Position numbers and translations under genes: made by a program. DNA of 64,000 nt from the IMG/VR virus record IMGVR_UViG_3300028862_000012, positions 159,866 to 223,865 of that record; one strand, given 5' to 3'. Shown piece after piece: positions 1 through 45,945 of the stretch (positions within the stretch are counted from its first letter, which is position 1; the number at the start of each line of letters is the position of its first letter). The DNA is from a virus. The notes beneath the pieces were generated by a model. That model was not told the origin of the DNA and ran no database searches. It saw only the letters and a list, made by a program, of their open reading frames with translations.

Positions 1-25
1 GACTTAAAGCTGGAATAAATATATT

Positions 26-259
26 ATGAATAATAAAAGAATTTCTACTTTTGTAGATAACGAGTGGTATGCTTTTTATAGGGATGTTGATAAAGATTAC
101 ATTTGTAATCAAAGTATACTTACTATACTAGAACTATTTTACAACTACCTAAATGACAAGTCAGAGTATTGTAAAAAGCTCATGGACTACTACAATTTAA
201 TTTCAGATAAATATAAAGCTGACTATTGGAAAGAAAGATACGAAAAGGAAATAAAATGA
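26..259 (+). CDS. hypothetical small protein (77 aa)
   Basis: Unrecognised acidic, aromatic-rich protein. Its TGA stop overlaps the ATG of the next gene (ATGA), as in the rest of this gene run, which supports it as a real gene. The weak ribosome site GGAATAA lies a little far from the ATG. Codons 6-11 contain a 19-nt sequence identical to a type V-A CRISPR repeat core (40-58), which is unusual inside a coding region. Confidence 0.7.
   Translation: MNNKRISTFVDNEWYAFYRDVDKDYICNQSILTILELFYNYLNDKSEYCKKLMDYYNLISDKYKADYWKERYEKEIK
40..58 (+). CRISPR. solitary type V-A-like CRISPR repeat core inside a gene
   Basis: The sequence AATTTCTACTTTTGTAGAT has the hallmark Cas12a handle: TCTAC and GTAGA arms around a 4-nt loop, preceded by AATT. 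The identical 19 nt occur on the opposite strand at 45912-45930. There is no second repeat nearby, so this is not an array. Chance identity of 19 nt in 64 kb is unlikely, although the sequence is AT-rich. It could be a solitary repeat unit acting as an RNA anti-CRISPR, or an accident of coding sequence. Confidence 0.45.
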
Positions 260-45070: not shown

Positions 45071-45847
45071 CTATTTTCCACCATTAATTTTTTCATCCAA
45101 TTGCTGAACCTGAATAGTAAGTACTTCAATCTTATGAATCAGCTTATTTTTCTTTTCCTCAAGTTCTTCTATTTCCTCAAGCTCTTCCATTGGTTCTTTA
45201 ATAATCTGTTTTACCTGATCAATAGTTTTTCCTTGCTGAAGCAAAATAAGTGCCTTTTGTGCTTTATCCAGATCAGAAGTAAGTGCTACAAAAGTTTTAG
45301 CATCAGAACTAATATCATTAGGAATACCCCGAGTAGCAATCTTAACAGTCTTTTTTACTGTTGTTCGCTTAATTCCAATAGTACGATCTGTAATATCTTC
45401 ATATCGTACATTTTCTTCTTTGCAGATAGTCTGTACTTCAATCAGTGCTGTACCCATTTCAGAAGTAAGCTTACTAATTTGTACATCCAGTTCTTTTACC
45501 TTATCAATTTTAGCTTTCAAGTTGTCAGAGATAACTACAGTGTAAAATCCGAGTTTTTCGGCTTTAGTAATTAGATCATAAAAGGTAGACCAAAAGAAAC
45601 TGGTATGTCCTTCCTTACGATTATTTTCTGCATACACTACATGATGAGCTAGTTCATGCAGTGCTGTAAAAAAGAGCAGATTATTGTCATCATTGAAATT
45701 TCGGTTATTTAATAGTATTTCTTTTGTTGCAGGTAAATATTTACCATTTACATTTTTAGATTTCTTTCCAGTAAAAATACAAGTATATTCATTTACGCAA
45801 TGATATACCTTATCCAGATTTTCTTTAACATCATTTTGATTCCACAT
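45071..45847 (-). CDS. SprT-like zinc metallopeptidase
   Basis: A 258-residue protein. HELAHHVVYAENNRKEGHTSFFW (HExxH at about 66-70, third His in EGHTSFF) matches SprT/SprT-like peptidases. The C-terminal half is a long coiled coil (about 120-255). The gene follows a two-repeat type V-A-like mini-array in its 5' leader. The ribosome site AAAGGATG lies between the second repeat and the ATG. Confidence 0.7.
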   Translation of the reverse strand: MWNQNDVKENLDKVYHCVNEYTCIFTGKKSKNVNGKYLPATKEILLNNRNFNDDNNLLFFTALHELAHHVVYAENNRKEGHTSFFWSTFYDLITKAEKLGFYTVVISDNLKAKIDKVKELDVQISKLTSEMGTALIEVQTICKEENVRYEDITDRTIGIKRTTVKKTVKIATRGIPNDISSDAKTFVALTSDLDKAQKALILLQQGKTIDQVKQIIKEPMEELEEIEELEEKKNKLIHKIEVLTIQVQQLDEKINGGK

Positions 45848-45859
45848 ATAACATCCTTT

Positions 45860-45945
45860 ATCTACATAAGTAGAAATTTTAATTTTCTAAATACTCGCAA
45901 GAAATCAATTCATCTACAAAAGTAGAAATTTAAAACCTTCTAAAA
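45860..45945 (-). CRISPR. two-repeat type V-A-like mini-array
   Basis: On the minus strand, repeat 1 (45945-45912) ends in AATTTCTACTTTTGTAGAT and repeat 2 (45892-45860) ends in AATTTCTACTTATGTAGAT; both start with TTTAGAA and have TCTAC/GTAGA stems. A 19-base unit (45893-45911) lies between, shorter than normal Cas12a spacers. No cas12a, cas1 or cas2 is nearby. It sits between a promoter and the SprT-like gene. It may be a degenerate mini-array or an RNA anti-CRISPR that loads Cas12a with a useless guide. Confidence 0.6.

Follow-up and report, generated by a model that had tools for sequence, protein, structure and literature searches.

A 19-nt sequence identical to the handle of a mature type V-A (Cas12a) crRNA lies inside a coding region of a phage, which raises the question of whether it acts as RNA or is simply what the gene happens to spell. 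The window analyzed (64,000 nt) comprises bases 159,866-223,865 of a 223,865-bp viral record with 29% GC, and the handle occurs at its very beginning (Table 1). A first-pass annotation had noted that the same 19 nt recur on the other strand, in the first repeat of a mini-array, and had offered selection for the RNA, a former array or a target decoy as explanations. We propose that 40-58 may mimic the Cas12a crRNA repeat through its handle alone, embedded in an mRNA, and so serve as a decoy resembling the RNA anti-CRISPRs (Racrs), and on the sequence comparisons given below we put this at about an even chance.

Table 1. Features of the window that bear on the handle, with position, strand and basis.
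Feature	Position	Strand	Basis or remark
Promoter-like TTGACT-N17-TATTAT	1..27	+	10/12 sigma-70-like matches
77-codon orphan ORF containing the handle	26..259	+	ORF tests; sole relative identical
Type V-A (Cas12a) crRNA handle AATTTCTACTTTTGTAGAT, exact	40..58	+	sense, within the 77-codon ORF
Orphan gene (258 aa) following the mini-array	45071..45847	-	SprT-like match, weak (sub-threshold in Pfam)
Mini-array repeat 2, one mismatch	45860..45878	-	12 nt, including AAAGGA, separate its end from the start codon (ATG) of the 258-aa gene
Spacer-like stretch, 33 nt, between the two handles	45879..45911	-	no significant phage or plasmid match
Mini-array repeat 1, same 19 nt as 40-58	45912..45930	-	exact match

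The handle, the mini-array and the surrounding gene

A scan of the whole viral record bore out the recurrence: AATTTCTACTTTTGTAGAT is present at 40-58 (+) and, exactly, as repeat 1 of the mini-array on the opposite strand, and the one-mismatch copy AATTTCTACTTATGTAGAT lies 52 nt from the latter. The reversed-pattern control had 0 copies in the same record, and Markov models of orders 0-5 predict 3.6e-5 to 7.4e-5 exact copies on both strands of the whole genome. Identity between 40-58 and mini-array repeat 1 is confined to the mature Cas12a crRNA handle and ends precisely where the handle does; the flanks diverge immediately on both sides (AAAAG/handle/AACGAG at 40-58, TTTTA/handle/GAATTG in the mini-array). 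Because the flanks differ and the shared stretch is exactly the mature handle, 40-58 is not a copied or duplicated segment. Many real V-A arrays, including those of Patescibacteria, Campylobacteraceae, Bacteroidaceae and others, have the exact 19-mer as the 3' portion of their 36-nt repeats. In each of the two stretches around 40-58 that were folded, the minimum-energy structure was the UCUAC-UUUU-GUAGA hairpin; the RNA of 19-120 folds with z=-2.0, a value equaled by ~12% of random genome windows of the same length. Rfam returned no match.

Although 40-58 covers 19 of 19 handle nucleotides, it covers only 19 of the ~36 nt of the full V-A repeat; the 17-nt 5' half is absent, its 9 mismatches being at the random level. 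Within 300 nt, the closest approach to a second handle differs at 7 positions, which is typical of random places, and by the published solitary-repeat criterion (no other repeat within 100 nt) the site is solitary. A relic array at 40-58 was accordingly rejected as a candidate. The broader suggestion that the site is the remnant of a former array absorbed into the gene can appeal to the mini-array elsewhere in the genome, but the missing second handle and 5' half, flanks unlike those of the mini-array, and the expectation that a decaying repeat would not stay exact leave it very unlikely.

The mini-array itself (45860-45930, -) sits in the leader of the 258-aa orphan gene. With its two handles 52 nt apart, it falls short of a type V-A array, which has several full repeats with spacers, and most V-A arrays examined have a repeat spacing of 60-66 nt. 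Searches with its spacer against phages, plasmids and the phage's own genome gave nothing significant, and its one 18-nt match in IMG/VR stops at base 18.

The first-pass annotation had placed the handle within codons 6-11 of a 77-residue gene. It does lie inside that ORF, but it starts at the last base of codon 5 and runs to the end of codon 11. The ORF is probably a real gene, because several observations agree: the 77 open codons were kept in 0 of 5000 dinucleotide shuffles of the segment (70 were reached by one), the codon score of 0.22 exceeds the 95th percentile of wrong frames (0.02), the TGA stop overlaps the next ATG, the preceding gene ends 7 nt upstream, and the Shine-Dalgarno (SD) pairing, while weak, is within range, 21% of phage ORFs being equally weak or weaker. 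The codon score is low relative to that of the phage's other small ORFs. The 77-aa protein has a single relative in viral contigs, 100% identical and on another contig. It had no match in PHROGs, Pfam, NCBIfam or PADLOC, none to a known anti-CRISPR, no paralogue within the phage genome, and a best match of only E=0.6 among named phages; a search for relatives through the terminase, NrdD, the 258-aa protein and the RecA/UvsX-like protein yielded none that was useful.

Given the peptide R-ISTFVD, the codon usage of the phage yields the exact handle DNA with P=0.017-0.03. Codon choice is thus weak evidence only, since usage alone produces this DNA about 1.7% of the time. Since the phage often uses the codons in question, the handle could arise from coding alone.

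Transcription and the proposed fate of the RNA

The -35 box of the promoter-like element starts just before base 1 of the window, its -10 box (22-27) overlaps the ATG at 26, and the element ends 12 nt 5' of the handle. The phage genome contains 239 sigma-70-like sites with at least 10/12 matches, mostly in coding sequence, and from their genome density such a site is expected within 60 nt upstream of a given point ~3% of the time. Better matches favor intergenic starts (6 of 7 perfect sites and 17 of 36 sites with at least 11/12, vs 7% expected), and the phage, as judged from its sequence, uses sigma-70-like promoters. Transcription from the element at 1-27 would begin near 33-35, ~5 nt before the handle. 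This start would fall after the ATG at 26, so the resulting transcript could not use that ATG. No terminator was found after 40-58.

Cas12a recognizes the hairpin of its pre-crRNA and cuts just 5' of it. Observed directly at this locus are the sequence identity and its borders, the ORF, the promoter-like element and the absent PAM, and for 40-58 we infer transcription, a host Cas12a, and binding, cutting and inhibition. The handle would be made within the + strand operon transcript and/or from the adjacent promoter-like element, and host Cas12a, treating the hairpin like that of its own pre-crRNA, would bind it and cleave on the 5' side of A40. Useless phage coding sequence would then occupy the guide position of the complex. 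Such a complex could not attack the phage, because the DNA preceding the post-handle sequence is AGAT and not a TTTV PAM. The two-handle mini-array would be a second decoy unit in the same genome. The target decoy suggested earlier is therefore favored if it is understood as an RNA that sequesters Cas12a; as a DNA target decoy it is not supported, since Cas12a does not target the handle in DNA form and the sequence after the handle lacks a preceding TTTV PAM. Of the three earlier suggestions, selection for the RNA is the likeliest, with support that falls short of demonstration; the former array is disfavored.

A search of the genome with TIGR04330 (Cas12a family) gave no match, and control genomes were equally silent. 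Intact Cas12a has ~1,200-1,300 aa, so the largest phage ORF, a DNA polymerase of 942 aa, is too short to encode it. When 1,027 spacers, mostly from cellular V-A arrays with this handle, were compared with the phage, match counts were near those of the reversed-spacer control. A Campylobacteraceae spacer was rejected as a pointer to the host, its 19-nt match covering the 3' part only with a mismatched seed. Elsewhere in the genome, the + strand gene run that contains the handle also encodes a 300-aa metallo-beta-lactamase-fold protein resembling RNase Z (1147-2049, +), and an adenylosuccinate synthetase-like ORF is split by an intein (G000:C1:24860-27262, -; L019:4860-7262). Comparison of this ORF with PurZ and of the DNA polymerase with DpoZ gave weak matches, both far below cut-off, and a modified-base genome is only a thought that they bring to mind.

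Handles in other viral records

IMG/VR has the exact 19-mer in only 13 stretches, and the form AATTTCTACTNNTGTAGAT in at least 118. For comparison of sites we used the 105 distinct V-A handle sites among the matches listed, three of them from this genome. Within this set, 61 of 105 sites (58%) are intergenic, vs 8% of random places; in nine, the 60 nt upstream hold a promoter-like site matching at 10/12 or better, vs 1.3 expected; and a terminator follows within 130 nt in 28% of the intergenic handles, vs 4% of random intergenic places. In several of the matches listed, the upstream promoter-like element places its -10 box 6 nt before the handle, and several intergenic handles form compact promoter-handle-terminator units, an architecture that, by analogy, RNA anti-CRISPRs should show. 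In most viral sites among the matches listed, similarity to the 17-nt 5' half of the repeat is at the random level, so most of the viral V-A handles found are handle-only; this applies to most of the ~60 intergenic handles listed (L005-L017, L143-L250), several of which are promoter-handle-terminator units.

Handles within ORFs behave differently. They account for 44 of the 105 sites among the matches listed, 18 sense and 26 antisense, at arbitrary places. Given this lack of a sense excess and of preferred places, location in an ORF is by itself no evidence of function, and the in-ORF handles elsewhere look like chance background. The same could hold here: codons 5-11 of an ordinary small gene may spell the handle, with the promoter-like element nearby by chance as well. 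Coincidence would suit the arbitrary, as often antisense as sense, positions of in-ORF handles across IMG/VR, the common codons of the handle and the abundance of promoter-like sites in coding sequence, and the find was picked from a large scan, though a copy is very unlikely for one genome. On the other hand, ~5e-5 exact copies are expected per genome and only roughly 0.003 in some 60 handle-bearing viruses together, and the same phage holds an identical handle in its mini-array. A second dispersed handle was found in none of the 49 other handle-bearing viral records among the matches listed, which have one site each or, in two, a doublet ~40 nt apart. We regard coincidence as the chief rival, if a rather unlikely one. 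The site stands out by the identical-handle mini-array in its own genome together with the 10/12 promoter-like element 12 nt upstream.

Further sites were recorded. The V-A handle doublets, at L163:4613-4673 (-) and L179:4628-4686 (+), are 40-42 nt apart with 21-23 nt between. At L010:9354-9372 (-), a V-A handle with a terminator behind it is preceded, at a distance of 14 nt, by what by eye resembles the end of a type-I-like repeat, GTTCCGAAAGGGCTTGTGGATTGAAAC; the pair may be a double decoy aimed at two CRISPR types. The handle-like AATTTCTACTCGTGTAGTT at G000:C1:152546-152564 (-), antisense in a 413-aa ORF and present in the sister record and in G000, is probably due to chance.

A handle followed by a Shine-Dalgarno sequence and ATG was seen before unrelated phage genes at L152, L190, L219, L228, L229, L233 and L238. 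Among the matches listed, 5 of 50 intergenic handles (10%) have this arrangement, vs 3.5% of random intergenic places. It recalls the present phage, in which both handle sites are within 15 nt of a start codon, and could mean that, by binding or cutting a handle where a gene begins, host Cas12a governs how well the mRNA is translated or how stable it is; the second mini-array repeat, lying 12 nt ahead of another ATG, would act alike. Such cis-regulation could account for the recurrence before diverse genes, but the enrichment is small and would be expected if decoys simply ride in leaders, and the genes downstream share no function. We consider it improbable.

For a decoy at 40-58 count the rarity of the exact handle under Markov expectation, its identity to the mini-array repeat of the same phage and to the handle of real V-A arrays, borders that coincide with those of the mature handle, the neighboring promoter-like element, the enrichment of viral handles in intergenic DNA and near promoters and terminators, and the lack of a second dispersed handle in the other 49 records. 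Against it count the chance-like behavior of in-ORF handles elsewhere, the ordinary codons of the handle, the lack of a terminator, and the predicted transcript start past the ATG at 26.

Relation to known systems and implications

RacrVA1-3, the type V-A RNA anti-CRISPRs, inhibit the V-A (Cas12a) system of Moraxella bovoculi (Camara-Wilpert et al. 2023, PMC10651486), a precedent that by analogy counts for the decoy. Like these and other solitary repeat units, the phage has CRISPR repeat sequence just behind a promoter-like element, apparently with no cas genes; unlike RacrVA1-3, 40-58 is the 19-nt mature handle only (vs a ~36-nt repeat) and lies inside a likely gene. In the published Racr search (PMC10651486), ORFs were masked, matches inside genes were regarded as likely false positives, and a full match had to span at least 90% of the repeat, so 40-58 would have been passed over. 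Since the site departs from two of the published solitary-repeat criteria, intergenic location and at least 90% coverage of the full repeat, we report it as a possible variant of the V-A RNA anti-CRISPRs and not as a member. Most in-gene handle matches are background, in agreement with the view taken in that search.

A repeat mimic and a protein-coding gene on one RNA also occur in the bicistronic acr-racr locus AcrIC5/RacrIC1 (PMC10651486). That locus is of type I-C and has a separate anti-CRISPR gene beside the repeat, whereas the 77-aa protein is without a known anti-CRISPR match. The two handles around a 33-nt spacer-like stretch further recall the viral CRISPR mini-arrays of SPV1/SPV2 and others, which target related viruses (PMC11656645). 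By that precedent, the handle at 40-58 and the sequence after it could be a real guide RNA directing host Cas12a against another element. This is extremely improbable: the sequence after the handle is the gene itself, and the mini-array has a spacer that matches nothing known. Unlike those of SPV1/SPV2 and others, the repeats of the mini-array are handle-only and 52 nt apart.

RNA anti-CRISPRs are known as small non-coding RNAs and have been sought in intergenic regions. Our wider conjecture, which we hold tentatively and consider doubtful as yet, is that phages may place the bare 19-nt Cas12a handle in mRNAs, even within coding sequence near start codons, so that abundant mRNAs would also serve as Cas12a sponges or as switches that respond to Cas12a. 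Since most viral V-A handles found lack the 5' repeat half, the intergenic handle-only viral sites alone may be a sizeable set of candidate Cas12a decoys, easily assayed with existing methods. If a bare handle in an mRNA works, the published criteria, with ORFs masked and at least 90% of the repeat required, omit a class of inhibitors, and gene-masking, whole-repeat searches would miss this in-mRNA handle form of RNA anti-CRISPR.
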